From positions 1-54,408 of the forward strand of contig NZ_AYXG01000148.1 of the NCBI RefSeq assembly GCF_000564855.1: a DNA stretch of 54,408 bases, read 5' to 3'. Source of the DNA: Actinokineospora spheciospongiae (GTDB lineage: Bacteria; Actinomycetota; Actinomycetes; Mycobacteriales; Pseudonocardiaceae). Of the stretch, positions 27,927 to 51,032 are shown in pieces (positions within the stretch are counted from its first letter, which is position 1; each line of letters starts with the position of its first letter). A program made the position numbers and the translations under genes. The notes beneath the pieces are model-generated. The model did not search any database and had not been told where the DNA came from. It was given only the letters and a program-made list of their open reading frames with translations.

Positions 27927-29270
27927 ATGACACCAGGGGGATGGGCGGAACCACAGCGGGTGCTGGCCGCGGCGGGCCAGGTGCTGCGGGCGCCGCTGCG
28001 GCAGATCCTCGCGACCCTGTCCGAGGTCACCGCGGACTTCCTCCCGCACACCGCCCTGGTGATGCTCTCCGGCGACTGCCCCAAGACACCGATGTGGGCG
28101 CACGGGGACGCCGCGCTCGTCGGCGAGGTGACCACCGTCGAGCTGACCAGGCTCTCCACCCTCGTCGACGTCGGCACCCCCTGGGTCGGGGAAGCCACCC
28201 TCGCGGGCTCCCCCCGGCCCGTCCTCGCGGTGGCCTCGGCGCCGTCGGGTTCCGCCGGGGCACTGCTGGCCGTGCTCACCACCGGCGACCACCCGGCCGC
28301 CGCTCCCCCGGTGGTGCAGGCGCTGTGGGACCTGGTCACCAGCCGCATCCTTGACCTGCTGCCCGCGGCGGTGCCGGTCAGCACGCCGTGGATCGCCAAC
28401 AGCGAGCGGGCCAGGGTCATCGCGGGCCTGACCGACGCGCACGCCACCACGCTGACGGCCCTGCTGGGCGTGCTGCGCAGCCGCGGCCTCGACGACCGGA
28501 CCGCGCGCCGGACGGCCGTCGACCTCGTGGCCTCGGCGATGGTCGAACTGCGGGCCACCGACGACGACGACCCGGCGCCGCACGAGGAGGTGGTCGGCGA
28601 CGCATACGGCAGGCTCTCCGACATGCTGGGCCTGCTGTCGCGCTACGGCGGCGTGGCCCTGGACTTCTCCCCCGTGGCCTGCCGGAACCGGCTGATCCCC
28701 GCCGACATCGCCCGCACCGCCCGCGCGGTCATCCGCGGCACCGTGCTGACCATGCTCGAACAGGGCGGGGTCAACCGCATCCGGGTCTGCTGGGAGGTCG
28801 AGGACACCGAGCTGCGCAGCACGGTGCGCGACGACGGCCCGGGGACGCTGGCCGCGGAGGCGCTCACCGTGCACCGCCTCACCGACCGGGTGGCGGCGCA
28901 CAACGGCAGCCTGCACGTCGACTCGGTCCCGGAGTGGGGCACGATCGTGACCGTGCGGCTCCCGCTGGCCGCCCCCGACCTGTCCCACGGCGACCAACCC
29001 CTGGGCGTGCTCAACCCGAGGGAGTTGGACGTGCTGGAACACCTGGTCAACGGGCACCGCAACCGGGTGATCGCCGAGCACCTGCACATCAGCGAGCACA
29101 CGGTGAAGTTCCACGTGGCGAAGATCCTCAAGAAGCTCGACGTCGACTCCCGCGGCGAGGCCGCCGCGGTCGCCAGGGCCGCGGGCTTCCCCGCCGAGCC
29201 CTCGCTGGTGGGCTCGCCGAACCTGCCCGCGCAGGCCGCGTGGCCCACCCCGAGCCGCTTCACGTCCTGA
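27927..29270 (+). CDS. LuxR-family regulator with ATPase-like domain
   Basis: 447 residues. Residues ~1-150 resemble a GAF-type sensor. Residues ~260-355 resemble a histidine-kinase ATPase (RDDGPGTLAAEAL, GSLHVDSVPEWGTIVTVRLP), but no HisKA His is visible and the N box is degenerate. The C-terminus is a LuxR DNA-binding helix-turn-helix (LNPRELDVLEHLVNGHRNRVIAEHLHIS, HTVKFHVAKILKKL). Sensing, nucleotide binding and DNA binding would be in one chain. Its 3' end overlaps the convergent oxidoreductase gene by 11 bases. It may regulate the divergent SDR or the polyketide cluster. Confidence 0.85.
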   Translation: MTPGGWAEPQRVLAAAGQVLRAPLRQILATLSEVTADFLPHTALVMLSGDCPKTPMWAHGDAALVGEVTTVELTRLSTLVDVGTPWVGEATLAGSPRPVLAVASAPSGSAGALLAVLTTGDHPAAAPPVVQALWDLVTSRILDLLPAAVPVSTPWIANSERARVIAGLTDAHATTLTALLGVLRSRGLDDRTARRTAVDLVASAMVELRATDDDDPAPHEEVVGDAYGRLSDMLGLLSRYGGVALDFSPVACRNRLIPADIARTARAVIRGTVLTMLEQGGVNRIRVCWEVEDTELRSTVRDDGPGTLAAEALTVHRLTDRVAAHNGSLHVDSVPEWGTIVTVRLPLAAPDLSHGDQPLGVLNPRELDVLEHLVNGHRNRVIAEHLHISEHTVKFHVAKILKKLDVDSRGEAAAVARAAGFPAEPSLVGSPNLPAQAAWPTPSRFTS

Positions 29271-30204
29271 GCACGACCTTGCCCAGGGCGGACCCGGTGG
29301 CGATCAGTTCGTGGGCGCGCGCGGCGTCGGCCAGCGCGACGACGTGCCCGACGTGGACCCGCAGCCGCCCGGAGTCCACCAGGTCCGCGAGCGCCGCCAA
29401 CCCCGCGCTGTCCGGTTCCGCGGTGACGCCCGCGAACCGCAGGCCGCGCCCGGCCGCGCGCGCGGCCAGCCCGGCGTCGGTCATCTCCACGATGGTCACC
29501 AGCAGCCCGCCGGGCCGCAGCACGTCCAGCGACCGGACCGCGGTGTCACCGCCCACCGTGTCCAGCACGACGTCCACCCCCGCGACCACCTCGGCGAAGT
29601 CGGCGGCGCGGTGGTCGATCACCTCGTCGGCCCCCAGGTCCCGGACGAAGTCGTGCTTGGCGGCGCTCGCCGTGGCGATGACCGTGGCGCCCCTGGCCCT
29701 GGCGACCTGGACCGCCAGGTGGCCCACCCCGCCACCGCCGCCGTGGACCAGGACGGTCTGACCGCGGCGGACACCGGCGGTGTCCACCAGCGCCTGCCAC
29801 GCGGTCAGCCCGGCGAGCGGCAGCCCCGCGGCCCGCACGTGGTCGATCGTCGCGGGTTTGCGGGCCAGTTGCCTCGACGGCGCCGTGACGTACTCGGCGT
29901 ACCCGTTGGCGGCGCGCGGAATCCACGGCATCCCGTAGACCTCGTCGCCGGGGGCGAACCGGTTCACCCCCGGCGAAACGGACTCGACCACCCCGGAGAC
30001 GTCCCAGCCGACGGTGAACGGCGGCTCGCCGAGCAGGGGGATCGCCCCGGAGCGCACGTGGGCGTCGATCGGGTTGACCCCGGCGGCGACCACCCGGACG
30101 AGCACCTCGTTCAGCAGCGGCCGGGGCCGGTCCACCTCGGTGAGTTCCAGGACGTCCGGCCCGCCGAACGACCGCTGGGTGACCGCGCGCATCGTGCTCG
30201 TCAC
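29260..30204 (-). CDS. NADPH:quinone oxidoreductase-type MDR enzyme
   Basis: A 314-residue zinc-free MDR reductase: MRAVTQRSFGGPDVLELTEVD at the start, AGVNPIDAHVRSG, and the NADPH loop VLVHGGGGGVGHLAVQ. Last gene of the minus-strand polyketide operon, overlapping the SnoaL-like stop as GTGA. In the actinorhodin cluster an MDR enoyl reductase (ActVI-ORF2) acts on the pyran ring; a similar tailoring role is possible but unproven. The GTG four codons before the first ATG is chosen from the overlap. Confidence 0.87.
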   Translation of the reverse strand: MTSTMRAVTQRSFGGPDVLELTEVDRPRPLLNEVLVRVVAAGVNPIDAHVRSGAIPLLGEPPFTVGWDVSGVVESVSPGVNRFAPGDEVYGMPWIPRAANGYAEYVTAPSRQLARKPATIDHVRAAGLPLAGLTAWQALVDTAGVRRGQTVLVHGGGGGVGHLAVQVARARGATVIATASAAKHDFVRDLGADEVIDHRAADFAEVVAGVDVVLDTVGGDTAVRSLDVLRPGGLLVTIVEMTDAGLAARAAGRGLRFAGVTAEPDSAGLAALADLVDSGRLRVHVGHVVALADAARAHELIATGSALGKVVLRT

Positions 30205-30599
30205 CGGACCCCCTGCACCAGTTCGTCGAGGGTGGCGCCCTCGGGGACCGCCTGCCCCACGTCCCAGTGCTCCACCAGCAGGCCGTCGCGGACCCGCCAG
30301 ATGTCCACCACGATCACCGGCGGCACGCCGGGCGCGACCCGGATGACACCGTGGGTCCAGACCAGGTCGTCCTCCGCGACCGCGCGCAGGACCGTCAGCG
30401 AGAAGTCGGGGAACGGGGTCGCCGCCATCTCCTTGAACGTCTCCACCGTCCGCTCCCTGCCGACCCCGACCCCGTGGTGGTGGTTGGCGAAGTCCTCGGC
30501 GAGCATCAGCTTCGCGTTGTCGAAGTCCTTCTTGTTGTAGAACGCGTCGATGTAGTCCGCGACGAGCTTCTTGTTCGCCACAAGGGAATCGGATGACAT
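30201..30599 (-). CDS. SnoaL-like (NTF2-fold) protein
   Basis: A 132-residue cone-fold protein: LVADYIDAFYNKKDFDNAKLML, the FANHHHGVGVGRE strand, TPFPDFSLTVLRAVAEDD and VVDIWRVRDGLLVEHWDVGQ. Family members include SnoaL-type polyketide cyclases and many small isomerases. Located between the O-methyltransferase and MDR genes in the polyketide operon, so a cyclisation or aldol step in tailoring is a reasonable guess. A GAGGAGACCCGC region precedes the ATG. Confidence 0.82.
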   Translation of the reverse strand: MSSDSLVANKKLVADYIDAFYNKKDFDNAKLMLAEDFANHHHGVGVGRERTVETFKEMAATPFPDFSLTVLRAVAEDDLVWTHGVIRVAPGVPPVIVVDIWRVRDGLLVEHWDVGQAVPEGATLDELVQGVR

Positions 30600-30665
30600 G
30601 CGGGTCTCCTCGTTCGGGGGTGCGGGGTGGGAGCGACCGTACCGGGAACGGTGCGCTCGGAAGGG

Positions 30666-31688
30666 CTATTTGATCCCGATGACGATGGAATCGGGCCCGA
30701 TCAGGTGTTCCGACCACGAACGGCTGAACCCCGCCTCGGCCATCCAGCCCGTGCACTCGGCCGCGGTGTAGCCGAAGCCGCCGTCGGTGACCACCAGCAT
30801 GGTCAGGCTCATCAGCAGTGCGAACGCGTTCTCCGAGCGGTCGTCGTCGACGAGCGAGTCGTAGACGATCACCGCGCCGCCCTCGGGGAGCGCGTCCCAC
30901 GCCTTCCGCAGCAGGAGCTTCTTCTTCTCCAGGTCCCAGTTGTGCAGGACGTGGCCGAAGGTGATGACGTCGGCGCGCGGGAAGTCGTCGGTGAAGAAGT
31001 CGCCGCCGACGAACGCCAGCCGGTCCCGCAGCCCGTTCTCCGCCGCGTACTCCTCGAACACGGGCGCGGCAGCGGGCAGGTCGAAGCCGATCCCGCTCAG
31101 GTGGGGGTTGGCCAGCAGGACCTGGACCACCAGGTCCCCCTGCGCGGTACCCAGGTCGGCGACGGTCCCGTAGTCCTTCCAGGGCACCTGCCGGGCGATC
31201 CTGGTGTTCGCCGCGTGGCTGATCCCGGTCATGGACGCGAGGAACTGCTTGAGCCGCACCGGGTCGGCGTAGAGCGCGTCGTAGGTGTCGAGGTCACCGT
31301 CGGCGGACTCGTCGTGCGCGGCGCCGGTCCGCAGCGAGTCGGTGAGGTCGGCCCAGATGCGGTAGAGCCGCCCGTTGGCCATGTCCAGCATGCCGCCCGA
31401 GTGCGCGTAGGCGGGCTTGGCGCGGTCGAGGTGGGCGGCTGTCTCCTCGGTGTTGTGGTAGACGTCGTCGACCCGGCGCAGGAACCCGAGGGCCACCAGC
31501 GCGTCGAGGAAGTCGCGCGCCCCGCGCGGGTGCAGGCCCAGCCGCTCGCGCAGTTCGACGAGACCGGCCGGTCGCACGGCCAGTTCGGTGAACACACCGA
31601 GTTCGACGGCGCTCAGCAGCGTCTTCGACGCCTGGAACCCCATGCCGGTCCGCATGATCGCCTCGGCGGTGGGCTGTGGTCGGGTCAT
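30666..31688 (-). CDS. SAM-dependent O-methyltransferase
   Basis: 340 residues of the acetylserotonin/hydroxyneurocristin-type methyltransferase family common in aromatic polyketide clusters. A winged-helix dimerisation region (~15-100) precedes the SAM-binding motif [16 protein letters not shown], then [25 protein letters not shown]. The HNWD segment holds the usual catalytic-region His. It probably methylates a phenol of the polyketide. 48 bases separate it from the upstream oxygenase gene on the same strand. Confidence 0.9.
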
Positions 31689-31736: not shown

Positions 31737-32885
31737 TCAGCCCGCGGGCTCGCAGGCGGTCCTGGTGTAGTTGCGGGCGGCGGGCTCGAACTGGAGCGCC
31801 TGGTGCGTGGAGATCGAGTTGACGTCGCGCCAGAGCCGCTGGAGCAGGCCGTCGGCCACCTGGCCGCCGGTCCCCGCGGCGCGGAAGATCCGGTTGACCG
31901 CCCCGGTGAGCACGTCGATGGCGAACGCGGCGTCGCGGGCGCCGCGGGCGACCTCCGCGGGGGTGACGTCCCCCCGGTCGGCCACGTCGGCGATGCGCTC
32001 CAGCAGCAGCCCGACGGCATCGATCTCGGCGGACGAGCGCGCCAGCACGGATTCCCAGGTGGCCAGGTTCCCCTGCGCCCCGGGCGCCCCCGGGAGAACC
32101 GGCGCGTCGCGGACCTTGCGGGCGACGTGGGCGGACAGCAGCGCGAGGGCACCGCGCGCCGCACCGAGCGCGGGGACGACGAAGGTCAGGCCGTTGACCG
32201 CGGGCAGCGGTGCGACGGGGGCGGCCGGTTCACCAGCCGGGTCCACCGGGCGACCCGCGAACACGGTCTCCCGACCCACGACCCGGTGCGCGGGGACGAA
32301 GACGTCCTCCAGCACGGCAGTGTTGCTGCCGGTCGCCTGCATCCCCACGCTGAACCAGGTCTCCTCCACCCGGCACGCCTCCCGCGGCACGGCCACCAGC
32401 TTCAACACGGGCTCCCCGTCGACCAGCACCTTCGCGCACAGGACCGCCCACTCGGCGAACTCGATCCCGCTCAGGTACGGCCACCGGCCCGACACCCGCC
32501 AGCCGCCCCGTTCGGCGACGGCCTCGCCGAACGGGAGCACCGAGCAGACCACGGCGGTGTCCGGCCCGTCGGCCCAGAACTCGCGCCGCGCCGCCTGCGG
32601 GAACAGCGCGAGGAACCTGGGGGTGCTCGCGAAGAGGGACGCGCACCAAGCCGTGGCGGGGCACCGCTCACCGATCAGCGCGACCGCGGGCAGCAGTTGC
32701 CGGAACGTGCCGTCCCGCCCGCCGAAACCGGCCGGGACGAAGTGCCGCAGGAAGCCCGCTCCGAGCACGGCCTCGAACACCTCCGGGCCGAGCCGCCGCT
32801 GCCGGTACATCTCGGCGGAGAGCCCGGACGCGACCTCGGCGACGTCCACCGCGGCGGTGGAGAGGGGAACCTCGTTTTCCGGCAT
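31737..32885 (-). CDS. Acyl-CoA dehydrogenase-like flavin oxygenase, paralogue 1
   Basis: 382 residues with the acyl-CoA dehydrogenase fold of two-component flavin-dependent oxygenases (HpaB and ActVA-ORF5 group): [50 protein letters not shown], and the C-terminal RLWRDVNSISTHQALQ with its conserved His. It lacks the acyl-CoA dehydrogenase catalytic Glu motif. It needs reduced flavin, which the flavin reductase two genes upstream could supply. Likely role: aromatic hydroxylation or quinone formation. Closely related to the gene at 38378, with shared motifs throughout. Confidence 0.88.
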   Translation of the reverse strand: MPENEVPLSTAAVDVAEVASGLSAEMYRQRRLGPEVFEAVLGAGFLRHFVPAGFGGRDGTFRQLLPAVALIGERCPATAWCASLFASTPRFLALFPQAARREFWADGPDTAVVCSVLPFGEAVAERGGWRVSGRWPYLSGIEFAEWAVLCAKVLVDGEPVLKLVAVPREACRVEETWFSVGMQATGSNTAVLEDVFVPAHRVVGRETVFAGRPVDPAGEPAAPVAPLPAVNGLTFVVPALGAARGALALLSAHVARKVRDAPVLPGAPGAQGNLATWESVLARSSAEIDAVGLLLERIADVADRGDVTPAEVARGARDAAFAIDVLTGAVNRIFRAAGTGGQVADGLLQRLWRDVNSISTHQALQFEPAARNYTRTACEPAG

Positions 32886-32924: not shown

Positions 32925-34832
32925 TCACGACAGTTCGTGGTCATCGGGGTCCACCTCGTGGGTGCGCTGCCAGTACTCCTGCGCGGAATAGGGCCAGTTC
33001 ACCGCCGAACGCCCGCCCTCGTTGTACCAACCGCCCACCTTCGACCAGCCCCACGCGCGGTTCCGGTTCCCCGAGTCGATCCACTCGTTGTAGCGGTCGT
33101 GGACGTCGCGGCGCACCTGGATCGCGCTCTTGCCGCTCTCCAGCAGCAACCGGATCGCGTCGAGGACGTACGACGTCGCGCACTCGGAGAAGTAGACGAT
33201 GCTGCCGCCCTGACCGACCAGGTTGGTGTTGGGGCCGTAGAGGCAGAACAGGTTGGGGAAGTCCGGCACCGCGATGCCGAGGTAGGCGCGCGGTGCGCCG
33301 TTCCAGGTCTCGTGCAGGTCGACGCCCGCCCGCCCGGTCACCACCATCGGGGCCAGGAAGTGCGACGCCCGGAACCCGGTGGCGAAGACCAGCACGTCGA
33401 CGTCGACGGCCGCACCGCCCGCGACCACCCCGGTCGGGGTGATCCGCTCGATGGGTTCGGTCACCAGCCGCACGTCGTCCCGCTTCAGCGTGGCGATCCA
33501 GCGGCCGTTGTCCCGGAGGACGCGCTTGGCGCCGACCGGGTACCTCGGGATCACGGCGTCCCGGAGTTCCGGCGCGTCGGCCAACTGCGCTTCCATGGCC
33601 GCGGCCAGGCCCGCCCGCAGGTCCTCGTTCAGCGCCGAGACCGCGCGCTCCGTCGGCGGGTGGTCCGGGTCGACGACCCACCCCTCCAGGATTCCCCGCA
33701 ACCCGGGGGCGAAGAGCCAGAACCGGTGCCACCGGCCGTAGTGGGGCAGGTGGCGGTGGAGCCAGTGCGCGCCCGCGGGCACCGGGTCGTGGTAGTGCGG
33801 GGTCGGGCGCAACCACGGCGGGGTGCGCTGGAACACGACCACCTCGGCCGCCACCCCGGCGATCTCCGGGATGAACTGGTAGGCGCTCGCCCCGGTCCCG
33901 ATCACGGCGACGCGCTTGCCCGCCAGGTCGACCGAGTGGTCCCAGGCCGCCGAGTGGAACGCGGTCCCGGCGAACGCGTCGCGGCCGGGGATGTCCGGGG
34001 TGCTCGGCCGGTTGAGCTGCCCCACCGCGCTGATGACGACGTTGCAGGTGTCCGTCCGCTCCCCGTCGGGCCCGCTCGTGCCCAGGTGCCACAGGGAGTC
34101 CCGCTCGTCCCAGCGCATCGTGCCCACCTCGACGCCGTACCGGACGTGCTCGCCGACGCCGGACTCCTCCGCGAACGCCCGGAGGTAGTCCAGCACGTCG
34201 TCGCGGGTGCTGAAGTGGTCGGGCCAGTCGGCCCTCGGGGCGAACGAGTAGTCGTAGAGGTGGCTGGCCACGTCGGTGCGGCAACCGGGGTAGGTGTTCT
34301 CGAACCACGTCCCGCCGAGGTCGGGGTTCTTCTCGTAGACCACGAAGGGCACCCCGGCCTCGGCGAGGCGGCGGGCCGCGAGCAACCCGCTGAAACCGGC
34401 ACCGATGACGGCGACGCGGAAGCCCGCCGGCGGCGAGAGTTCGGCGAAGGTCCAGCGGGGCGCTCGCGGGTCCTCGCCGGGGAGCGCGAACCCCTCGGCG
34501 AGCAGTGGCAGCAGTTCCGCGGTGTCGGTCCCCATGGCCCACGTGGTGATCGCGCGCAACAGGTCGTCGCCCGGGGGCCGCACCTCCTGCCCACGGAGCC
34601 GGCGAAGCGCCAGGAACGCCCTCTCCCGCAGCGATTCCTGTTGTTCCGGGGTCAGCCCGCCCTGGGGCGCGAACAGCCACCCCGGGCTCCGGGGGAGTTC
34701 GCCCAGCAGCGACACGTCCCCGGTCAGGTGGGCGACGGTCATCACCAGCGCCGGGATCTCCGCGTCCACCAGGTGCTCGCGCAGGGTGTCCTCGTCGAGG
34801 TCGGGGAAACTAGCCCGTGCCACGGGTTCCAC
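32925..34832 (-). CDS. Class B flavin monooxygenase, Baeyer-Villiger type with N-terminal extension
   Basis: 635 residues. FAD motif GAGFSG at 144-149, NADPH motif GTGASA at 312-317, and between them the Baeyer-Villiger fingerprint F287-x-G-x3-H293-x3-W297-D. Residues 1-135 precede the FAD domain and give the length and layout of 4-hydroxyacetophenone monooxygenases. It should insert oxygen next to a ketone using NADPH. The start lies inside the flavin reductase gene (23-base overlap), so the two are probably translationally coupled. Confidence 0.9.
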   Translation of the reverse strand: MEPVARASFPDLDEDTLREHLVDAEIPALVMTVAHLTGDVSLLGELPRSPGWLFAPQGGLTPEQQESLRERAFLALRRLRGQEVRPPGDDLLRAITTWAMGTDTAELLPLLAEGFALPGEDPRAPRWTFAELSPPAGFRVAVIGAGFSGLLAARRLAEAGVPFVVYEKNPDLGGTWFENTYPGCRTDVASHLYDYSFAPRADWPDHFSTRDDVLDYLRAFAEESGVGEHVRYGVEVGTMRWDERDSLWHLGTSGPDGERTDTCNVVISAVGQLNRPSTPDIPGRDAFAGTAFHSAAWDHSVDLAGKRVAVIGTGASAYQFIPEIAGVAAEVVVFQRTPPWLRPTPHYHDPVPAGAHWLHRHLPHYGRWHRFWLFAPGLRGILEGWVVDPDHPPTERAVSALNEDLRAGLAAAMEAQLADAPELRDAVIPRYPVGAKRVLRDNGRWIATLKRDDVRLVTEPIERITPTGVVAGGAAVDVDVLVFATGFRASHFLAPMVVTGRAGVDLHETWNGAPRAYLGIAVPDFPNLFCLYGPNTNLVGQGGSIVYFSECATSYVLDAIRLLLESGKSAIQVRRDVHDRYNEWIDSGNRNRAWGWSKVGGWYNEGGRSAVNWPYSAQEYWQRTHEVDPDDHELS

Positions 34833-35319
34833 CTCCCGCCGTGACCGGGTTCGGGTCGAGCGTGGCGAACCGGCGGTCGAAGTAGATCGCGGGTGGGCCC
34901 GCGGCGGCCAGCACCTGGTCGACGACCTCCCCGACGACGATCACGTGGTCCCCCGCGTCGTGCCGCTGGTGCGTCCGGCACTCGACGGCGCCCAACGCGT
35001 CCTCGACGATCGGCGCCCGGTCGTCGGCGGGCGCGAAACCGCCCCCCGCGAACTTGTCGGCCAGCCTGGTGGCGAACCGGCGGGCGAGGTCGGTCTGCTC
35101 CGCGCGCAGGATGCTGACCGCGAACCGCTCCGCGCGGGCGAAGACCGGGAAGCACCTCGACGACCTGGCCAGGCACACCAGGACCAGCGGCGGGGTGAGC
35201 GAGACCGAGCAGAAGGAACTGACGGTCATGCCGTGCGGGGTGCCGTGCTCGTCGCGGGTCGTGACGATGGCGACCCCGGCGGGGAGCCGGGCGAGCACGT
35301 CCTTGAAGTCGTCGGCCAT
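34810..35319 (-). CDS. NAD(P)H:flavin reductase
   Basis: A 169-residue FMN-binding split-barrel reductase: LPAGVAIVTTRDEHGTPHGMTVSSFCSVSLTPPLVLVCLA, then FAVSILRAEQ and DHVIVVGEVVD. This is the ActVB/HpaC type that releases reduced flavin for a partner oxygenase. It is the only flavin reductase of this type in the cluster, while two oxygenases of the matching class are present. It lies 15 bases downstream of the ACP gene. Confidence 0.93.
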   Translation of the reverse strand: MADDFKDVLARLPAGVAIVTTRDEHGTPHGMTVSSFCSVSLTPPLVLVCLARSSRCFPVFARAERFAVSILRAEQTDLARRFATRLADKFAGGGFAPADDRAPIVEDALGAVECRTHQRHDAGDHVIVVGEVVDQVLAAAGPPAIYFDRRFATLDPNPVTAGGGTRGTG

Positions 35320-35334: not shown

Positions 35335-35592
35335 TCAGCTCGTCCGCACGAGGGCGTCGTTGACCAGGTCGAGCACCTCGCGCGGGGTGCGCAGTTCGGC
35401 CATGCGCTCCTCGGGGACCCGCACCCCGTACTCCGCCTCGATCCTGGCCGCGGTCTCCATCAGCGCGAGGGAGTCGTAGCCGAACTCCTCGAAGTCCCGG
35501 TCCTGGCGGTCGGCGGTCAGCGCCTCGCCGTCGGCCTCGCCCGCGCACTCGACCAGCACGCGGCGGAGGTCGTCGATGGTCATCCTGCTCAT
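35335..35592 (-). CDS. Type II polyketide acyl carrier protein
   Basis: An 85-residue ACP. Phosphopantetheine attaches at S41 in FEEFGYDSLALME, and the following helix is RIEAEYGVRVPEE. Translation starts inside the CLF stop (ATGA). A second Met lies three codons in. AGGAGC precedes the start. It carries the growing chain for the KS-CLF heterodimer. Confidence 0.95.
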   Translation of the reverse strand: MSRMTIDDLRRVLVECAGEADGEALTADRQDRDFEEFGYDSLALMETAARIEAEYGVRVPEERMAELRTPREVLDLVNDALVRTS

Positions 35593-36860
35593 GTTCGCTC
35601 CTGTGGTTGTCGCGGTCTCCGCGGCGCCGGGGTGCGCGGTCCGGGCACCGCGCGGACGACGACAGCGGAGTTGAACCCCCACCGGCCCCTGGCCAGCACC
35701 AGGGCGGTGGTCACCTCGTGGTGGCGGGGAACCCCGCGCACCAGGTCGATCCGGTAGTCCTCCGGCACCTCGGCGGTGCCGGGTGTCGGTGGGATCACCC
35801 CGTCCCGGATGGACAGCAGGGCGTCGGCGACGTCGACCGGGCCGCCACCGGAGTACATCCGGCCGGTCAGCGCCTTCGGCGCGGTGACGGGCACCGCGAA
35901 CGGCCCGAACAGCCCGCTGATGGCGGCGGCCTCGGCGCGGTCCAGCTCGGGCACCCCGGAGGCGTCGGCGAACACCACGTCGACCTGGTCCGGGGTGAGG
36001 CCCGCGTCGGCGAGCGCCGACTCCGCCGCCCGGCGCAGCCCCGGCGGTCGCGGCGAACCGGGCGGCGGGTCGAACGTCGTGGCGTAGCCCGCGATCTCGC
36101 CGTAGACCTGCCGCGCTCCCCTGGCCGCCGCGGCGGACGCGGTCTCCAGGACGAGGATCGCCCCGCCCTCGCCGGGGACGTACCCGCAGGCGTCGACGTC
36201 GAAGGGGCGGTAGGCGCGGTGCGCGTCGGTCGCGGTGCTGAGCCGCCCACTGGCGATCTGCGCCACCCAGCCCCACGGGTCGAGGGCCGAGTCGACGCCC
36301 CCGGTGACCACCATCGGGGTGCCCCGCCGGATGGTCCGGCGGGCGTGGCCGATGGCGTCGAGTCCGCCCGCCTGTTCGGCGACCAGCGCGGAACTGGGTC
36401 CGCGGAACTGATTGCGGATGGAGATCTGACCCGTGTTCACCGCGTAGAACCAGGCGAAGGACTCGTAGACGCTCACCGCGGCGGACCCCCGGGTCCACAG
36501 CTTCCGGAACTCCCGGTGGGTGAACTCGAAACCACCGGTGGCGTTGGAGGTGACCACACCCGTGTCGTAGTCGGCGAAGAACCCCTCGTCGATCTCCGCG
36601 TCCGCCAGCGCCCAATCCGCGGCCACCAGCGCGAGCTGGGTGGAGATGTCGGTCTGCGGCAGCAGCCTGCTCGGCAGGTGCCGCGCCGCGTCGAAGTCGT
36701 CGACCTGACCGGCCAGCCGGACCGGGTACCGCGAGACGTCGAACCGCGACAGGGTGGCGATCCCGCTGCGGCCCGCCAGCGTCGCCGCCCAGTGCTGCTC
36801 CAGCCCGGACCCGTTCGGTGCCAGCAGGCCGATCCCGGTGACGTAGACCCCCTCGCTCAC
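35589..36860 (-). CDS. Chain length factor (KS-beta)
   Basis: A 423-residue KS homologue in which the catalytic Cys is replaced by Gln (Q163 in ALVAEQAGG), the mark of a CLF. Residues that gate the polyketide tunnel in the actinorhodin CLF (F109, T112, F116) are matched here by F111, T114 and F118 in [10 protein letters not shown] with a constant offset of two, as for the Gln. This predicts an octaketide (C16). The C-terminal ~20 residues are an Arg/Pro-rich tail. GTG start overlapping the KS-alpha stop (GTGA). Confidence 0.95.
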
Positions 36861-38166: not shown

Positions 38167-38377
38167 TGTGACCCCCTTCCAAGGCGGACGCCAGCGTCGC
38201 CACCGGTACTAGTGGGACGGTCGGGCCGTGGTTGGCCGGTGCGGTCGATCCGGTGCGCCCCAGCGAAAGCCCAGCGGGACCCGAGCGGCGGCGGTGAGCA
38301 TCCGGGGGCGGGCCGGGACGGAACCGGCCGTGCCGCGGCTCCCCCGAGCCGAACCCGCCAGCCGAGGAGCGAACCGG

Positions 38378-40660: not shown

Positions 40661-41085
40661 CGGCGGTGGCGACCGACGCCCTCGCCGCCGCACTGGCCGG
40701 GGCCTGGCGGCTCGACGCCTACGTCGACGTGACCGACGGGCTGGTCGAGGAGGGCCCGCTCGGCCCCACCCCCGCGGGCCTGCTCATCTACACCGGTTGC
40801 GGCCGGGTGTCGGTGAGCATGATGCGGACCGATCCCGGTCCGCCCGCGCCGGGCGGTCAGGTGGTCCGCTTCATGGGCTACGCGGGCACGTGGTGGCTGG
40901 TGGGGCGCCACGTCGTCCACCAGGTCGACGTGGCGTCGCACGACTACCTGGTGGGCACCCGCCAGGTGCGCGACCTCGCGCTCGACGGCGACCTGCTCAC
41001 CCTGTCCGGTCAGACACCGCCGGGCGCGGGACCGCCGCGCAGGCGGGTGCTGACCTGGCGCCGCGCGACCGGGGGGCCGCGATGA
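40657..41085 (+). CDS. Lipocalin-like domain protein
   Basis: 142 residues: LAGAWRLDAYVDVTDG (the GxW of lipocalins), GLLIYTGCGRVSVSMMR, VVRFMGYAGTWWLVGRHVVHQVD, and LDGDLLTLSGQT. These match the small lipocalin-like domain found in several polyketide and terpenoid clusters, where members act as isomerases or cyclases or only bind product. The function here is unknown. GTGA and ATGA overlaps on either side tie it to its neighbours. Confidence 0.8.
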   Translation: MTAVATDALAAALAGAWRLDAYVDVTDGLVEEGPLGPTPAGLLIYTGCGRVSVSMMRTDPGPPAPGGQVVRFMGYAGTWWLVGRHVVHQVDVASHDYLVGTRQVRDLALDGDLLTLSGQTPPGAGPPRRRVLTWRRATGGPR

Positions 41086-42114: not shown

Positions 42115-42693
42115 TCAGATCGAGAGCCTGGCCCGGCTCAGCAGCAGCGCGTGGTCGGCGACCCGGCGGCCGAGGTGGGCCGCGGTGAGCAGGTCCGCCT
42201 CGCTCATGGCCTCCGGCCCCTGGTCCCCCGGGCACCGCCCCATGGCGCCCAGCCAGCCACCGAGCCGATTCAGCTCGGTCTCGGCCGTGCCGGGCGGCAG
42301 GTCGAGGTTCACCCAGTGCATCCCGTGCTGGGCGGCCAGGATGGTGAAGTACTGGAGCGTGTTCAGCTTGTCACCGCTCATCGCCCCGGAGGTGGTGAAG
42401 CCCGCGGCCACCTTGTCCTTCCACGCCTGGGCGAACCAGCGCCCGCTGGTGGCGTGCGCGAAGGTGTGGAACTGCGGGCTCGCCGACCCCATGTAGGTGG
42501 GCGAGCCGAAGATCATGGCGTCCGCCGCGTCGAGCCGGGCCCACTTGTCCTCGGTCAGTTCGTCGAGCGTGAGCAGCTCCGCGGCGACGCCGTCGACGGA
42601 GGCCGCGCCGTCGCACGTCGCCTCGGCCATCCTGGTCGTGTGCCCGTAGCCGCTGTGGAAGGCGACGACGACCGAGACCGTCTTGGCGGTCAT
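42115..42693 (-). CDS. Flavodoxin-fold NAD(P)H:quinone reductase (WrbA-like)
   Basis: 192 residues. FHSGYGHTTRMAEA is the FMN phosphate loop, and FGSPTYMGSASPQFHTFAH and AAGFTTSGAMSGDK are the isoalloxazine loops of the WrbA/flavodoxin family. It reduces quinones by two electrons. In a cluster that makes aromatic quinones this could protect the host or act in tailoring. GGGAAAACAC precedes the ATG. It is divergent from the SARP gene across 413 bases. Confidence 0.87.
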   Translation of the reverse strand: MTAKTVSVVVAFHSGYGHTTRMAEATCDGAASVDGVAAELLTLDELTEDKWARLDAADAMIFGSPTYMGSASPQFHTFAHATSGRWFAQAWKDKVAAGFTTSGAMSGDKLNTLQYFTILAAQHGMHWVNLDLPPGTAETELNRLGGWLGAMGRCPGDQGPEAMSEADLLTAAHLGRRVADHALLLSRARLSI

Positions 42694-43106: not shown

Positions 43107-43883
43107 TTGAAGTTTCACCTGTTGGGCCAATTCACCATTGAAACGGCGGAGGGAAAACTTTCCTTCCTGCCCAAATCGAAGATCACCCAGATCCTCGGCG
43201 TGCTGCTGGTGCAGAACGGCGAGACCGTCCGGGTGGACACGCTGATCGAGGAGCTCTGGGGGGAGGACGTCCCGCGCAGCGCGCTCACCACGCTGCAGAC
43301 CTACGTCTACCACGCGCGCAGGATGTTCGCGAAGATGCCGGAGGGGAAGGGGCTGCTGCTCACCAGACCGTCCGGGTACGCGGTGGACGTCGCCGACGAC
43401 GCGATCGACATCAAGGTGTTCGAGCGGCTGGTCGGCCAGGCGCGGCGGCAACTGCACGCCGGGCAGCCGGAGGCGGCGATCGAGTCCGTCGACCGGGCGG
43501 TGGCCCTCTGGCGGGGTCCGGTGCTCGCGGGCATGCCGCTGGGCAGGGTGCTCGACGCCCACGTCACCTACCTCGACGAGTTCAGGTTCTCCGCCACCGA
43601 GCTGTGGGTGGCCGCGAGCAGGCGCCTCGGCCGGGACCGGGAGGTCGTCCCCCGGCTCCGCCTGCTGGTGGCCGAGAACCCGCTGAACGAGAGCCTGCAC
43701 GCCCAGCTCATCCGCTCCCTGCACCGGTGCGGCAGGCGGGCGGAGGCGCTGGAGGCCTACCGGAACCTCTGGCGCATCCTCGACCGGGAGTTGGGCGTGG
43801 AACCGGCCCCGGAACTGCAACTGCTGCAACACGAGCTGTTGGCGACCGGGAGCGGTCACGCGCCACCGCGCATGGCGCTCTGA
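43107..43883 (+). CDS. SARP-family pathway activator
   Basis: 258 residues. The winged-helix DNA-binding domain (~1-95) is MKFHLLGQFTIETAEGKLSF, LGVLLVQNGETVRVDTLIEELWG, RSALTTLQTYVYHARRMF. The bacterial transcriptional activation domain (~100-250) follows with IDIKVFERLVGQARR, AVALWRGPVLAG and EALEAYRNLWRILDRELG. Size and layout match ActII-ORF4 and DnrI, which bind direct heptamer repeats and recruit polymerase. TTG start with GGGGGG upstream; this weak start may limit expression. Likely activator of the polyketide operons. Confidence 0.95.
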   Translation: MKFHLLGQFTIETAEGKLSFLPKSKITQILGVLLVQNGETVRVDTLIEELWGEDVPRSALTTLQTYVYHARRMFAKMPEGKGLLLTRPSGYAVDVADDAIDIKVFERLVGQARRQLHAGQPEAAIESVDRAVALWRGPVLAGMPLGRVLDAHVTYLDEFRFSATELWVAASRRLGRDREVVPRLRLLVAENPLNESLHAQLIRSLHRCGRRAEALEAYRNLWRILDRELGVEPAPELQLLQHELLATGSGHAPPRMAL

Positions 43884-43950: not shown

Positions 43951-44694
43951 TCAGAGCATCGCCACGACCCGGGTCCACCCCGCTCCCGCGCCCGCGAGGG
44001 AGACGGGGAAGCAGGAGACCGTGAACCCCGTCGCCGCGGGGAGGTCCCCCAGGTTGGCGAGCTTCTCCAGTTGCAGGTACTCCCTGCTGCGGCCGTAGAG
44101 GTGTGCGGGCCACAGGTGGGCGCGATCGCCGGTGCGGCGGTAGTCGTCGACCATGGACCGCATCGGGCGGTCCAGGCCCCAAGCGTCGATGCCGATGACC
44201 CGCACCCCGCGCTCCACCAGGAAGGCCGTGCCCTCCCCGGTGAGGCCGGGGTAGTCGGTGAGGTAGTCGGCCGACCCCCAGAGCGCGTCCGCTCCGGTCC
44301 ACAGGAGCACCAGGTCGCCCGGGGCGAGGTCGTGCCCGGCGGCGGCCAGCGCGGCGGTCAGGTGCGCCTCGGTGATCCCCGCCCCGGCGGGCACGTGCCG
44401 CAGGTCCAGGCGCACGCCGGGGCCGTGGCACCAGTCGAGCGGCACCTGATCGATGCTCTTGGCGGGCCGCCCGCCGCTCTCCGGGCCGTAGTGCAGCGGG
44501 GCGTCCATGTGGGTGCCGGTGTGCGTGGTGAGGGTGACCGTCTCGTTGGAGATGGCCATCCCCCCGGGGAAGTCCTCCGGTCGCAGTCCGAGCACGGCCG
44601 CGGCCGCGCGGTGGTCGAGCAGGTCGACCTTGACCGGTGTCGCTTCGCTGGGGGTGTCCGTCGTGGTCACGCTGAGGTCGATGAAACGTGTCAT
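43951..44694 (-). CDS. Metal-dependent cyclase family protein
   Basis: 247 residues of the PF04199 'cyclase' family (kynurenine formamidase-like fold). The metal-binding motif is H58-TGTH62-M-D64-AP. RVIGIDAWGLDRPM and a tail with SCFPVSLAGAGAGWTRVVAML complete the family pattern. In aromatic polyketide clusters such proteins close later rings. It takes the place that the lactamase-like ActIV has in actinorhodin; no ActIV homologue is visible here. Divergent from the FAD oxidase gene. Confidence 0.88.
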   Translation of the reverse strand: MTRFIDLSVTTTDTPSEATPVKVDLLDHRAAAAVLGLRPEDFPGGMAISNETVTLTTHTGTHMDAPLHYGPESGGRPAKSIDQVPLDWCHGPGVRLDLRHVPAGAGITEAHLTAALAAAGHDLAPGDLVLLWTGADALWGSADYLTDYPGLTGEGTAFLVERGVRVIGIDAWGLDRPMRSMVDDYRRTGDRAHLWPAHLYGRSREYLQLEKLANLGDLPAATGFTVSCFPVSLAGAGAGWTRVVAML

Positions 44695-44926: not shown

Positions 44927-46483
44927 ATGCAGAACGACATAGAAAGCACTGCGACGCGCAGAAGCGCATTCGGACCGGTGACGGTGACATCCGATGATCG
45001 GCGTTATCCCGAACTGGTGGTCGGTTTCAACCGGCGGTGGGGGGCGAAGCCGGAAAGCGTCCGGCTCGTCGGGAGCGCCGAGCAGGTCGAGAGAGTGGTC
45101 CGGGAAGCCGTGCGGACCGGGAAGCGGATCTCCGTCCGCAGCGGCGGGCACTGCTACGCCGACCTGGCCTACCACGCCGAAGCCGAGATCATCATCGACC
45201 TCTCGCTGATGGACGGCATCCACTACGACCCGCACCGCAGGGCGTTCGCCGTCGAGAGCGGCGCGCAACTGGGCCACATCTACGAAACGCTGTTCCGCGG
45301 TTGGGGCGTGACGCTCCCCGGCGGGGTGTGCCCGTCGGTCGGCATCGGCGGCCACGCGACCGGCGGCGGCCACGGCCTGCTCTCGCGCCAGTTCGGCAAC
45401 GTCGCCGACCTGATCGAGGCCGTCGAGGTGGTGGTGGTCGACCGGCACGGCGACGTGCGGACCGTCGTCGCCTCGCGGCAGGACACCGGCAGGCTCAACG
45501 ACCTGTGGTGGGCCTGCGCGGGCGGGGGCGGCGGCAGCTTCGGGGTGATCACGAAGTTCTGGTTCCGCACCCGGGGCGCCACCGGGCACGACCCGGCGGC
45601 GCAACTGCCGAACCCCCCGGCCGAGGTGCTGATCAGCACCGCGTTCGCCGCGTGGGAGCAGCTCGACCAGGCCACCTTCACCGCCCTGATCCGGAACCAG
45701 TGCCAGTGGTACGTCGACCACAGCGCCCCGGACTCGCCCGGCGCCGCGCTCTGCGGCCTGCTGTTCGTCCAGCACGTCTCGACGGGCGGCATCGGGATGC
45801 TCACCCAGGTCGACGCCACGGTCCCCGGCGCGGAGGAGCTGCTGCGGGACTACCTCGACGCGGTCACCGCGGGCACCGGGATCACCGGCCCGTTCCCGTT
45901 CCGGCGGCTGCCGTGGCTGGCCTCCACCGAGACCATCGACACCAGCAACCCCACGGTCATGACCAACTCGACGCTGCGCAGCGGGATCAAGCAGGCCTAC
46001 CTGCGCGAGCGCTTCACCGACGAGCAGATCGGCGCCATCTACCGGCACATGACCAGGCGGGACTACTCCAACCCGTTCCCCGGCGCCTCGCTGCTGCAAC
46101 TCGGGGCGATGGCGGGCGGGCAGGTGAACGCCCTGGCCCCCACCGACACCGCGGTGTTCCAGCGCCGGTCCGCCCTCGTCGCGGTGCTGGAGAACTACTG
46201 GGTCACCGAGGCCGAGGACGAGGCGAACCTCGGTTGGCTGCGCGAGCTCTACGGTGAGGTGTTCGCGTCCACCGGCGGCTACCCCGTGCCCGGCGAGCGC
46301 TACGAGGGCTGCAACATCAACGCCCCCGACCCCGACATCACCGACCCGCGGTTCAACCGGTCCGGCGTGCCGTGGCACACCTTCTACTTCGGCCAGAACT
46401 ACCCGCGGCTGCAACGGGCGAAGGCCCACTGGGACCCGGGCAACCACTTCCGCCACTCGCTCTCGGTGACCGCCGACCGCTGA
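44927..46483 (+). CDS. Bicovalent FAD oxidase (berberine bridge enzyme-like)
   Basis: 518 residues. FAD attaches to H75 (RISVRSGGHCYADL) and C135 (GGVCPSVGIGGHATGGGHG), the two-link pattern of berberine-bridge/aclacinomycin-oxidoreductase-type enzymes. The BBE C-terminal element is FYFGQNYPRLQRAKAHWDPGNHFRH. Such oxidases use O2 to oxidise alcohols or aromatise rings, or couple phenols. No signal peptide. GGGGGAGCGGAG precedes the ATG. A strong hairpin follows. Confidence 0.92.
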   Translation: MQNDIESTATRRSAFGPVTVTSDDRRYPELVVGFNRRWGAKPESVRLVGSAEQVERVVREAVRTGKRISVRSGGHCYADLAYHAEAEIIIDLSLMDGIHYDPHRRAFAVESGAQLGHIYETLFRGWGVTLPGGVCPSVGIGGHATGGGHGLLSRQFGNVADLIEAVEVVVVDRHGDVRTVVASRQDTGRLNDLWWACAGGGGGSFGVITKFWFRTRGATGHDPAAQLPNPPAEVLISTAFAAWEQLDQATFTALIRNQCQWYVDHSAPDSPGAALCGLLFVQHVSTGGIGMLTQVDATVPGAEELLRDYLDAVTAGTGITGPFPFRRLPWLASTETIDTSNPTVMTNSTLRSGIKQAYLRERFTDEQIGAIYRHMTRRDYSNPFPGASLLQLGAMAGGQVNALAPTDTAVFQRRSALVAVLENYWVTEAEDEANLGWLRELYGEVFASTGGYPVPGERYEGCNINAPDPDITDPRFNRSGVPWHTFYFGQNYPRLQRAKAHWDPGNHFRHSLSVTADR

Positions 46484-46634: not shown

Positions 46635-47594
46635 ATGCGAACCGAACGCGAACACCACACCGAACACCGACTGGTCGTCGCGGCGCCGCCGCGGGTCCTC
46701 TACGGCCTGGTCGCCGACGTCACCGCCTGGCCCGCCGTGTTCGGCCCGAGCGTGCACGTCCGGCACCTCGACCGGTCCGAGCGCGAGGAGCGCTTCGAGC
46801 TGTGGGCCACGGTGAACGGGGCCGTCAGCACCTGGACCTCCCGGCGCACGCTGGACCCCGGCGGGTTGCGGGTGACCTTCGACCGCGAGGTGAGCGCGCC
46901 GCCGATCGCCTCGATGGGCGGCGAGTGGCGGTTCCGCGCCCTGCCGGGGAACCGGTGCGAGGTCGTGCTGCTGCACCGCTTCACCACGACCGACGACGAC
47001 CCCGGGACCGTGGGGTGGGTCACCGCGGCACTGGACCGCAACAGCCCGGAGGAACTCGCCGCCCTGGCCCGCGTCGCGCAGTCCGGTCACCCGGTCGAGG
47101 ACGTCGTCTTCTCGTTCACCGACGCCCGGGCCCTGTCCGGCTCGGCGGCGGGCGCCTACGAGTTCGTGGCACGCGCGGACCTGTGGGCCGAGCGGCTGCC
47201 GCACGTCTCCAGGGCGGTGCTGTCCGAACCGGCCCCCGGCGTCCAGGACCTGGAGCTGGACACGGTGACGGCGGACGGCTCCCGGCACACCACCCGGTCG
47301 GTCCGGGTGTGCGGTGAAGGGGAGTGGATCGCGTACAAGCAGGTGGTCACCCCGGAGCTGCTGCACGGGCACAGTGGCCTGTGGACCTTCACCGAGGGGC
47401 CGGAGGGCGCGCTGGTGACCTCCCGGCACACGGTGGTCATCAACCCCGGGGCGGTCGGCACCGTGCTCGGAGCGGGCAAGACCGTGGCCGACGCCAAGGT
47501 GTTCGTGCGGAACGCCCTCGGCCGCAACAGCGCGACGACCATGTCCTCCGCCGCTGCCTTCGCCGCCGAGCACAGCGCCCGGTCCGGGTTTTGA
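46635..47594 (+). CDS. Didomain polyketide aromatase/cyclase
   Basis: 319 residues with two SRPBCC domains: residues ~1-150 (HRLVVAAPPRVLYGLVADVTAWPAVFGPSVHV) and ~165-310 (SGSAAGAYEFVARADLWAERLPHVSRAVL). This is the ActVII/didomain type that aromatises the first ring of polyketides reduced at C9, in agreement with the ActIII-like ketoreductase nearby. TWTSRRTLDPGGLRVTF and WTFTEGPEGALVTSRHTVVI are the paired strands. GAAGAGGCGAC lies upstream of the ATG. Confidence 0.93.
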   Translation: MRTEREHHTEHRLVVAAPPRVLYGLVADVTAWPAVFGPSVHVRHLDRSEREERFELWATVNGAVSTWTSRRTLDPGGLRVTFDREVSAPPIASMGGEWRFRALPGNRCEVVLLHRFTTTDDDPGTVGWVTAALDRNSPEELAALARVAQSGHPVEDVVFSFTDARALSGSAAGAYEFVARADLWAERLPHVSRAVLSEPAPGVQDLELDTVTADGSRHTTRSVRVCGEGEWIAYKQVVTPELLHGHSGLWTFTEGPEGALVTSRHTVVINPGAVGTVLGAGKTVADAKVFVRNALGRNSATTMSSAAAFAAEHSARSGF

Positions 47595-48390: not shown

Positions 48391-48457
48391 TAATAATCTC
48401 ACCCGTTCGCGGGTTGCCTGCGGCGCGGTCGGTCCGCGCCGGGCTGAGGGGGTTCCG

Positions 48458-49639: not shown

Positions 49640-49651
49640 CCGGTCAGCGGC

Positions 49652-50083
49652 TCAGTCGAAGTGGAGCCGGTCCTGCCGGACGTGCCTGGACCTGGTCAGC
49701 AGTTCGTCCCCCACCCGCACCAGCACGTCGGTCACCAGGCAACTGGGCCCGATGCGCTGGTCGCCACCCGGCCTGGTGTTGACCGTGTAGGCGTAGTAGG
49801 TCGCGCGCCAGGAACCACCCTCCCCCGGGTCGAGGACGACCATGTTGAACCAGTGCCTGCGGACCACCGGGTCGTCGTCGAAGCGCCGGTGGAACTCGAC
49901 CAGTTCCGCCACGATCCCCGCCCTGGTGGCGGCCAACTGCCCCGGCGTGTGGCTGAACTCGCCGTCCTCGGTGAAGGTCGCGGCGAAGCCCTCGAAGTCG
50001 CGGCCGTCCATCAGGTGCGTCTGCCTGGCGAGGAAGTGCACCACCTCGCCGTGGAGGTCGCGGGCGGTGTCGGTCGTGGTCAT
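49652..50083 (-). CDS. NTF2/SnoaL-like protein of the polyketide cluster
   Basis: 143 residues: VVHFLARQTHLMDGRDFEGFAATFTEDGEFSHTPGQ, LVEFHRRFDDDPVVRRHWFNMVVLDP, IGPSCLVTDVLVRVGDELLTRSRHV. The cone fold and length match SnoaL-like proteins found beside ketoreductases in benzoisochromanequinone clusters (ActVI-ORFA-like, from memory). A role in ring closure or stabilising an intermediate is likely. Divergent from the ketoreductase gene across 163 bases. Confidence 0.82.
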   Translation of the reverse strand: MTTTDTARDLHGEVVHFLARQTHLMDGRDFEGFAATFTEDGEFSHTPGQLAATRAGIVAELVEFHRRFDDDPVVRRHWFNMVVLDPGEGGSWRATYYAYTVNTRPGGDQRIGPSCLVTDVLVRVGDELLTRSRHVRQDRLHFD

Positions 50084-50123
50084 GGGTTCCTCCCGGTGCC
50101 GTGCGGAAGCCGCCACCGTGGCG

Positions 50124-50138
50124 CACCGGACTAGCGGG
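50124..50138. promoter_or_regulatory. Motif shared with the KS-alpha control region (CACCGG-ACTAG-GGG)
   Basis: CACCGGACTAGCGGG here resembles CACCGGTACTAGTGGG at 38201-38216. Both lie in divergent control regions of the polyketide cluster. It may contain a -10-like element (TACTAGT) or a regulator site. Weak by itself. Confidence 0.3.
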
Positions 50139-50246
50139 TCGCTCGAACCCCGCCCCCCGGGGCCAAGACGGGCACGACCGGACTCCGAGCGGCACCGGTC
50201 ACCGTCGTGCCGTCGCCCGCGTTCCACCACCGCGAAGGGAAGAGCC

Positions 50247-51032
50247 ATGAGCCGAGTCGACCAGCAGGTCGCGATCGTCACCGGTGCCACCAGCGGGATG
50301 GGGCTGGTCATCGCCGAACGGCTGGCCCAGCAGGGCAGGCGGGTCTACCTCTGCGCCCGGGACGCGGATCGGCTGGCCCGCACGGTGGGGTCCCTGCGGG
50401 CCCGGGGGCTCGAGGTGGACGGGAGCGCGTGCGACGTGACCTCCGCCGACCAGGTGGGGCGGTTCGTCCGCGCCGCCGTCGACCGGTACGGGCCGATCGA
50501 CGTCCTGGTCAACAACGCCGGGCGCAGCGGCGGTGGCGCCACCGCCGAGATCCCCGACGAGCTGTGGTTCGACGTCATCAACACCAACCTCAACAGCGTG
50601 TTCCTGATGACGAAGGCGGTGCTCACCACCGGCGCCATGCTGGACCGCAAGTGGGGCCGGGTGGTCAACATCGCCTCGACCGGGGGCAAGCAGGGCGTGG
50701 TGCACGCCGCACCCTACTCGGCGTCGAAGCACGGGGTGGTCGGGTTCAGCAAGGCGCTCGGGCTGGAGCTGGCCGCCACCGGCATCACCGTGAACGCCGT
50801 GTGCCCCGGGTTCGTCGAGACCCCCATGGCCGCGCGGGTGCGCGAGCACTACGCCGGGATCTGGGGGGTCGACACCGAGGAGGCGTTCGACCGCATCACG
50901 GCCCGCGTGCCGATCCACCGGTACGTGGAGTCGGACGAGGTGGCGGCCATGGTCGAGTACCTGGTCTGCGAGCGGGCCGGGGCGGTGACCGCCCAGGCGC
51001 TGAACGTCTGCGGCGGACTGGGCAACTACTAG
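50247..51032 (+). CDS. C9 polyketide ketoreductase (ActIII-like)
   Basis: A 261-residue SDR with cofactor loop VTGATSGMG and catalytic tetrad N114, S144, Y157, K161, the same numbers as actinorhodin KR. The C-terminal half (NIASTGGKQGVVHAAPYSAS, VNAVCPGFVETPMAARV, AQALNVCGGLGNY) is nearly that of ActIII. The PGG substrate-groove motif at 94-96 is SGG here. It reduces C9 of the nascent octaketide. GAAGGGAAGAG precedes the ATG. Rightmost gene of the cluster. Confidence 0.95.
   Translation: MSRVDQQVAIVTGATSGMGLVIAERLAQQGRRVYLCARDADRLARTVGSLRARGLEVDGSACDVTSADQVGRFVRAAVDRYGPIDVLVNNAGRSGGGATAEIPDELWFDVINTNLNSVFLMTKAVLTTGAMLDRKWGRVVNIASTGGKQGVVHAAPYSASKHGVVGFSKALGLELAATGITVNAVCPGFVETPMAARVREHYAGIWGVDTEEAFDRITARVPIHRYVESDEVAAMVEYLVCERAGAVTAQALNVCGGLGNY

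Follow-up and report, generated by a model that had tools for sequence, protein, structure and literature searches.

An actinorhodin-type polyketide gene cluster of Actinokineospora spheciospongiae with a Baeyer-Villiger monooxygenase-esterase-lipocalin module that may excise the starter acetyl group

The window analysed here is a stretch of 54,408 nucleotides from Actinokineospora spheciospongiae (Pseudonocardiaceae; RefSeq assembly GCF_000564855.1, contig NZ_AYXG01000148.1, positions 1 to 54,408). Genes were called with a codon model and assigned to families by Pfam and NCBIfam profile searches. A compact gene set at 26992-51032 encodes a type II polyketide synthase (PKS) related to that of actinorhodin (act) from Streptomyces coelicolor, together with a HAPMO-like Baeyer-Villiger monooxygenase (BVMO), an esterase and a lipocalin-fold protein. 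A sequence-only reading of the window had placed the cluster at 29260-51032. This is too narrow, because a LuxR-type regulator gene (27960..29270, plus strand; GerE domain) and a gene for a short-chain dehydrogenase/reductase (SDR; 26992..27765, minus strand; Pfam adh_short) also belong to it. Among the sister clusters described below, luxR homologues are present in five (55-71% identical). Homologues of the SDR, a candidate 3-ketoreductase, are present beside the ketoreductase (KR) gene in three (S. netropsis, G711 and G464; 71-75% identical), whereas in the window the SDR gene lies at the far left.

On the minus strand, a run with short gaps or overlaps contains the genes for the ketosynthase (KS), chain-length factor (CLF), acyl carrier protein, flavin reductase, BVMO, a two-component flavin oxygenase of the acyl-CoA dehydrogenase (ACAD) fold, O-methyltransferase, a SnoaL-like protein and a medium-chain dehydrogenase/reductase (MDR). 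A second ACAD-fold oxygenase gene on the plus strand is followed by the genes for a DUF6081 protein, a Lipocalin_5 protein and the esterase; these last three overlap one another. The right part comprises the genes for a WrbA-like protein, a SARP regulator, a PF04199 cyclase, a berberine bridge enzyme (BBE)-type oxidase, a didomain aromatase/cyclase (ARO/CYC), a TetR regulator and a PPOX flavoprotein, a homologue of ActVI-ORFA, and the KR.

The core genes are close to those of act. The KS (36857..38122, minus), the CLF (35589..36860, minus) and the KR (50247..51032, plus) are 77.2%, 69.6% and 70.0% identical to the act proteins, which are also their best relatives in the PDB (1tqy_A, E 2.9e-213; 1tqy_B, E 5e-181; 1x7g, E 1.5e-115). 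The residues named in the sequence-only reading were all recovered at their positions. KS C169/H309/K341/H346 and KR N114/S144/Y157/K161 have the same letters and numbers in act, and CLF F111/T114/F118 with Q163 corresponds to the act gate and Q at the aligned columns. The acyl carrier protein (35335..35583, minus; PP-binding) carries its serine in YDSLA. The didomain ARO/CYC (46635..47594, plus; Polyketide_cyc) has BexL as its best PDB relative (E 3.4e-81), and BexL and ActVII are classed in PMC12664062 as didomain aromatases of KR-containing, C9-reduced systems. The gate F-T-F is found in the window and five aligned sisters, as in act, and in three of four controls, with F-T-I in G223. In a 13-row KS tree, act falls inside a 10-row clade (100/99) with the window, five sisters and three controls, and the corresponding fork of the CLF tree has support 90/91, act being the sole characterised reference in both trees. 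These comparisons support an act-type, C9-reduced type II PKS with a KR of the ActIII type, as had been proposed. The octaketide predicted with it is likely from the relation to act and the CLF gate.

The BVMO (32925..34832, minus) shows both type I BVMO fingerprints, in the patterns we take to be diagnostic, and two Rossmann motifs. Type I BVMOs of the PDB align to it only from residue 130-141 onward, indicating an N-terminal extension of ~135 residues relative to CHMO and PAMO. The motifs and the extension fit the earlier assignment as HAPMO-like. K436-R437 is invariant in seven sequences and aligned to the KR dipeptide of OTEMO. The esterase (41082..42011, plus; Abhydrolase_3) belongs to the hormone-sensitive lipase (HSL) family. 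Its Ser158/Asp251/His281 are invariant in six aligned sequences, and heroin esterase (1lzk) is its second-best PDB relative. The small protein earlier called lipocalin-like (40654..41085, plus) is a Lipocalin_5 member (PF13924). It was modelled as a barrel (pLDDT 85); the attempt to read a function from this fold yielded no PDB match at E<=1e-3.

A scan of named genomes with the BVMO, among the best 80 of 122 relatives, gave Streptomyces netropsis (74%), Actinokineospora iranica (70%) and Dactylosporangium sucinum (62%) at the top. Clusters of the window's kind occur in 6 of the 390 genomes searched from its family (the window, A. iranica, G078, G310, G020 and G303) and in 5 of 392 Streptomyces genomes (S. 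netropsis, G711, G464, G703 and G689), eleven in total. At E<=1e-150, a BVMO match is present in 22 of the 390 family genomes: six hold the cluster, four (G365, G350, G360 and G107, at five places) show no type II core around the BVMO, and 12 (42-50% identity) were left unread. Eight of the 392 Streptomyces genomes have a BVMO match, three of which (44-45%) were not read at the BVMO. Seven act-type clusters without BVMO served as controls: four from Pseudonocardiaceae found through DUF6081 (G071, G388, G223 and G093) and three from Streptomyces found through the KS at 79% (G635, G540 and G692; search restricted to E<=1e-222). Eighteen DUF6081 neighbourhoods were fetched, and 14 without an act-type KS in the stretch were left out; among the latter, G391 carries an esterase homologue (44%) but no BVMO. 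Presence of homologues in the 18 clusters was scored by tblastn at E<=1e-9.

The esterase and the Lipocalin_5 gene are each present in 11 of 11 clusters with the BVMO and in none of seven without it (Fisher p 3e-5 for each, shared descent ignored; controls were read over ~40 kb, so a more distant esterase is possible). G711, G464, G703 and G689 were retrieved after the pattern had been noticed, and all four fit. DUF6081 (9/11 versus 4/7), ActIV (7/11 versus 7/7) and the MDR (7/11 versus 4/7) show no significant difference. In G310, genes for BVMO, DUF6081, lipocalin, esterase and a second DUF6081 sit side by side in the same orientation, separated by no more than 27 bp or overlapping by 4 bp. 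In the window, the BVMO and flavin reductase genes overlap within the KS run, and the esterase lies in the overlapping plus-strand group. A too-short Dactylosporangium contig (L011), not counted, has a 32% esterase homologue beside its BVMO. The esterase is not a general neighbour of HAPMO-like BVMOs: among 41 loci covering 5 kb or more to each side, none has one within 5 kb, S. netropsis and A. iranica being among the 41 with their esterases further off. By this comparison the BVMO, the esterase and the lipocalin-fold protein are shown to form one putative functional module.

Among 98 rows, the BVMOs of seven clusters group with one from Dactylosporangium in a single clade of eight (quick tree, SH-aLRT 96). 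A single KS or CLF clade of the BVMO clusters was not recovered: the trees, which hold 6 of the 11 clusters, require two changes for CLF and three for KS. This would fit movement of the module, in trees that are poorly resolved. As a side observation, the BVMO of a contig titled as a Klebsiella pneumoniae metagenome-assembled genome (L083) groups with Myxococcales, and the title is probably wrong.

The second distinctive feature is the cyclase of the second ring. The replacement of the metallo-hydrolase cyclase ActIV by a PF04199 protein (43951..44694, minus; Pfam E 1.5e-34), noticed in the sequence-only reading, recurs in a branch of the sisters. PF04199 is present in 4 of the 11 clusters, and these are the four without ActIV in the cluster. 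Homologues in S. netropsis, G711 and G464 are 82-85% identical. The other seven carry ActIV, and the sole PF04199 match in their genomes (E<=1e-20) is 48% identical and on another contig of G020. With ActIV of A. iranica as query, no match at E<=1e-20 was found in the whole draft genome of the window, whereas the genomes of S. netropsis, G711 and G464 contain ActIV-like genes (49-53%) outside the cluster. Help by ActIV in trans is therefore excluded for the window alone, within its draft. The motif HTGTHMDAPLH of the window protein fits HxGTHxDxPxH, which we take to be the metal site of the family. Another member, presumably, is OxyN. PMC7749508 proposes that OxyN and its homologue ChdY act as second-ring cyclases in tetracycline-type pathways. 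The comparison thus shows an exchange of the cyclase gene in one branch, and the cyclase activity of the PF04199 protein is predicted. The same genome has a second PF04199 gene (C48:29619-30281), which is 51% identical to that of the window and has another type II KS gene ~10 kb away.

The tailoring genes had been said to match no nameable cluster. This is qualified by near-collinear clusters in S. netropsis and two further Streptomyces genomes, for which no product is known here. S. netropsis CECT 3265 (NZ_JACHJG010000011) has homologues of 22 of 22 listed parts in near-identical order, and adds acetyl-CoA carboxylase genes; G711 and G464 have 21 of 22 in near-identical order, DUF6081 being absent from both. 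All three share the PF04199 exchange. A. iranica (NZ_FMZZ01000007), G078, G310, G020, G303, G703 and G689 share the act-type core, BVMO, esterase, Lipocalin_5, DUF6081, ACAD oxygenase and ActVI-ORFA homologue with the window. They differ in having ActIV for PF04199, in the absence of the O-methyltransferase and in variable SDR and MDR. In the draft of G303, the KS, CLF, DUF6081, ACAD and KR matches (contig C206) are split into several pieces, by decay or assembly error. Four of the 11 clusters (S. netropsis, A. iranica, G078 and G310) include an acetyl-CoA carboxylase gene pair that the window cluster lacks. In a plasmid collection, DUF6081 had no match, the BVMO matched 18 records, all below 60%, and the CLF matched 87 records, at best 66%, with a product annotation in none of the 20 listed. 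Text searches of the open-access literature found no description of such a cluster among the matches listed (25 of 1,621 in one search).

Among known systems, act shares the core and members of the ActVI-ORFA and ActVA-3 families, but it has ActIV and pyran-forming genes. To our knowledge, the act cluster contains no BVMO, HSL esterase or Lipocalin_5 gene. The naphthocyclinone (ncn) cluster of S. arenae has DUF6081, an ACAD-type oxygenase, a flavin reductase, a SARP and an NTF2 protein in common with the window; it differs by the metallo-beta-lactamase-type cyclase NcnE, and its gene list in Table 1 of PMC10697411 includes neither a BVMO nor an HSL esterase.

The DUF6081 protein (39575..40660, plus; PF19559, E 1.2e-94) had been regarded as unknown, which does not hold, as the family has characterised members (ActVA-3, NcnN and Aln6). 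According to PMC10697411, loss of ncnN abolished formation of the naphthocyclinone dimer (alpha-naphthocyclinone acid), loss of actVA-3 left ~8% of actinorhodin, and Aln6 is a cofactor-independent oxidase cleaving a C-C bond. NcnN is listed there at 180 aa with DUF6081 as best hit; the window protein has 361 aa. Its model (mean pLDDT 61) resembles GH16/concanavalin-type jelly rolls, odd for an oxidase and a lead only. DUF6081 was rejected as a marker of the BVMO clusters owing to its presence in controls, a count biased by the four Pseudonocardiaceae controls found through it. DUF6081 genes also occur in three genomes of the same genus (G016, G022 and G011) in which the 40 kb read contain neither a KS nor a CLF homologue, so the family may have roles outside act-type clusters.

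The profile searches confirmed the two ACAD-like oxygenases (31737..32885, minus, HsaA/HPAH-like; 38228..39520, plus) and the O-methyltransferase (30666..31688, minus; Methyltransf_2), which among the 18 clusters is confined to the four with PF04199. The flavin reductase (34810..35319, minus; Flavin_Reduct, E 5.7e-46) may play an ActVB-like role. The bicovalent FAD oxidase of the earlier reading is a BBE-type protein of the TamL/AknOx/GilR family (44984..46483, plus, start approximate). H in SGGHCY and C in PGGVCP align to the TamL positions that presumably link the flavin. The NTF2-like ActVI-ORFA homologue (49652..50083, minus; 5bka, E 1.4e-35) conserves the residues aligned to R76 and H78. 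The zinc-type MDR (29260..30192, minus), a candidate enoyl reductase, is 75-78% identical to homologues in three sisters, 35-42% in three more and 35-39% to the MDRs of four act-type clusters without BVMO. The remaining genes encode a SnoaL_2-type protein (30201..30581, minus), a WrbA-like flavodoxin/quinone reductase (42115..42693, minus) and a SARP (43107..43883, plus; BTAD).

Between the ARO/CYC and the ActVI-ORFA homologue lie the TetR regulator and an MSMEG_1061-like PPOX flavoprotein (47714-49576). None of the sister clusters read has a homologue of the PPOX gene (48458-49576), and the pair is missing from the sisters of the same gene order. To the left of the cluster are an EF-hand protein (26274-26981), an operon for CoA-transferase III, acetoacetate decarboxylase, 3-hydroxyacyl-CoA dehydrogenase (HBDH) and a FadE-like ACAD (22056-26213), a spore photoproduct lyase homologue (20886-21947) and, before it, a stress-signalling group of SpoIIE phosphatases, RsbR/RsbS/RsbT-like proteins and a histidine kinase (11101-20836). 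A SpoIIE-type protein lies to the right. Outside the window, the genome has two further type II PKS cores (C60:11585-12832 and C48:40235-41479) with KS 69% and 62% identical to act KS and with CLF gates F-G-L, not F-T-F.

What the module does to the polyketide is best considered from the act pathway, in which the naphthol ring carries C15-C16 as an acetyl substituent once ring 2 has closed. In the catabolism of 4-hydroxyacetophenone, the HAPMO-type enzyme HapE and the esterase HapD convert an acetyl arene to a phenol. Their BVMO-plus-esterase logic, like that of acetone monooxygenase and AcmB, is shared with the module, but both pairs are catabolic and not polyketide tailoring enzymes. For acetone monooxygenase and AcmB, PMC6215540 describes this two-step ketone cleavage. 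According to PMC11315284, the act shunt naphthoquinone (S)-NHAB is proposed to originate by cleavage at C14-C15. Together with the likeness of the esterase to heroin esterase, by name an acetyl-ester hydrolase, these precedents make replacement of the acetyl by a hydroxyl the simplest use of the module.

In the proposed scheme, whose enzyme activities, ketone attacked, acetate loss and step order are predictions from gene content, KS, CLF and acyl carrier protein would build a C16 chain, the KR would reduce C9 and the ARO/CYC would aromatise ring 1. PF04199, or ActIV in seven sisters, would close ring 2 to give a bicyclic 2-acetyl-1-naphthol with a C4 side chain. Oxidation of the aryl methyl ketone (C14-C15) by the BVMO would give an aryl acetate, from which the esterase would split off acetate, so that C15-C16 are lost and the oxygen stays on C14. 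The ACAD oxygenases with the flavin reductase would form the quinone. The SDR, MDR, O-methyltransferase, BBE oxidase and DUF6081 protein would finish the product; SDR, MDR and O-methyltransferase could reduce C3 and methylate the new oxygen. As a hydroxyl in place of the acetyl would remove the ketone needed for the pyran ring, the end product would be a C14 hydroxynaphthoquinone, not a pyranonaphthoquinone. That this act-type octaketide cluster thus makes a juglomycin-like C14 hydroxynaphthoquinone is plausible, falling a little short of probable. The wider claim is more tentative: possibly, a dedicated BVMO-esterase-lipocalin cassette of Pseudonocardiaceae and Streptomyces excises the starter acetyl of act-type octaketides and diverts a pyranonaphthoquinone route to C14 hydroxynaphthoquinones, with the ActIV-to-PF04199 exchange in one branch. 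Acetyl excision is rated higher than the ring-cleaved or rearranged octaketide of the sequence-only reading.

Several points weigh against acetyl excision. The BVMO could attack another ketone, in the C3 side chain or the ring, and its placement as HAPMO-like comes from motifs and the N-terminal extension. The 2-acetyl-1-naphthol identity of the bicyclic intermediate is taken over from act chemistry, and the product is a prediction from the genes. Every BVMO cluster (11 of 11) and every control (7 of 7) has a homologue of ActVI-ORFA, whose proposed role in act is to prevent C14-C15 cleavage. An MDR homologue is present in the window and six other BVMO clusters, and an SDR homologue in 5 of the 11 (in G689 at a distance of ~38 kb from the KS); these could take part in pyran formation, and MDR presence does not track the BVMO (Fisher p 1.0). 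The esterase lies ~5-10 kb from the BVMO in all four PF04199 clusters, and at the place of HGGG in HSL enzymes, presumably the usual motif of the family, five of six aligned module esterases read HWGG. The co-occurrence test takes no account of shared descent.

One alternative is that the cluster makes a benzoisochromanequinone, on which the BVMO acts late at a ring or side-chain ketone, with the esterase opening the resulting lactone or ester to a ring-cleaved or side-chain-shortened product. Features expected of benzoisochromanequinone clusters, namely two-component oxygenases, flavin reductase and ActVI-ORFA homologue, are present. The MDR and the SDR could be the enoyl reductase and 3-ketoreductase of that pathway; the MDR resembles those of the four BVMO-free clusters, and the SDR is 56% identical to one in G223. 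A. iranica, G078, G310 and G303 (4 of the 11) have no MDR, SDR or ActVI-1-like homologue of the window genes in the stretch read, so a pyran is not obviously made there, although absence of the MDR is weak support because the three Streptomyces controls also lack it. The HBDH gene (24025-24972) was considered as the ActVI-1-type reductase of the cluster. It is part of the CoA-transferase operon; homologues are missing from the 10 sister clusters and, at E<=1e-60, from all 12 other genomes of the genus searched. A gene in control G223 is 47% identical to it. The HBDH gene was left out of the cluster, not disproved. On balance, a late BVMO step on a pyran-containing product is unlikely, though it is the strongest of the alternatives.

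A C14 skeleton could also arise by retro-Claisen loss of the acetyl, in a cluster of a known juglomycin type with the BVMO as a minor tailoring enzyme; the product might then already be known. Juglomycin C of Streptomyces sp. MBT70 may have the C14 naphthoquinone skeleton proposed for the window. Its cluster has been linked to the product (PMC6175363), and (S)-NHAB indicates that act intermediates can yield such a skeleton (PMC11315284). That BVMO and esterase are linked in all 11 clusters favours a main-path role of the BVMO, and this origin is improbable. Least likely is a dimer, as in actinorhodin and naphthocyclinone, formed by the DUF6081 protein with the BVMO modifying monomer or dimer: the ncnN and actVA-3 losses connect the family with dimerisation (PMC10697411), but two of the three closest sisters lack DUF6081 and the Pfam search found no NmrA-type (ActVA-4/NcnM-like) protein in the window cluster.

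The three-gene module marks out a directly testable sub-family of act-type clusters. As S. netropsis CECT 3265 and A. iranica IBRC-M 10403 are named strains among the eleven, their products can be looked for. The branch with PF04199 represents a natural swap of second-ring cyclase genes with the kind of chain unchanged. As the module may trim the carbon skeleton, the cluster might yield a pigment or antibiotic of a new kind. If acetyl excision is true, these cells use deliberately a C14-C15 cleavage that has been proposed as a shunt in actinorhodin biosynthesis.

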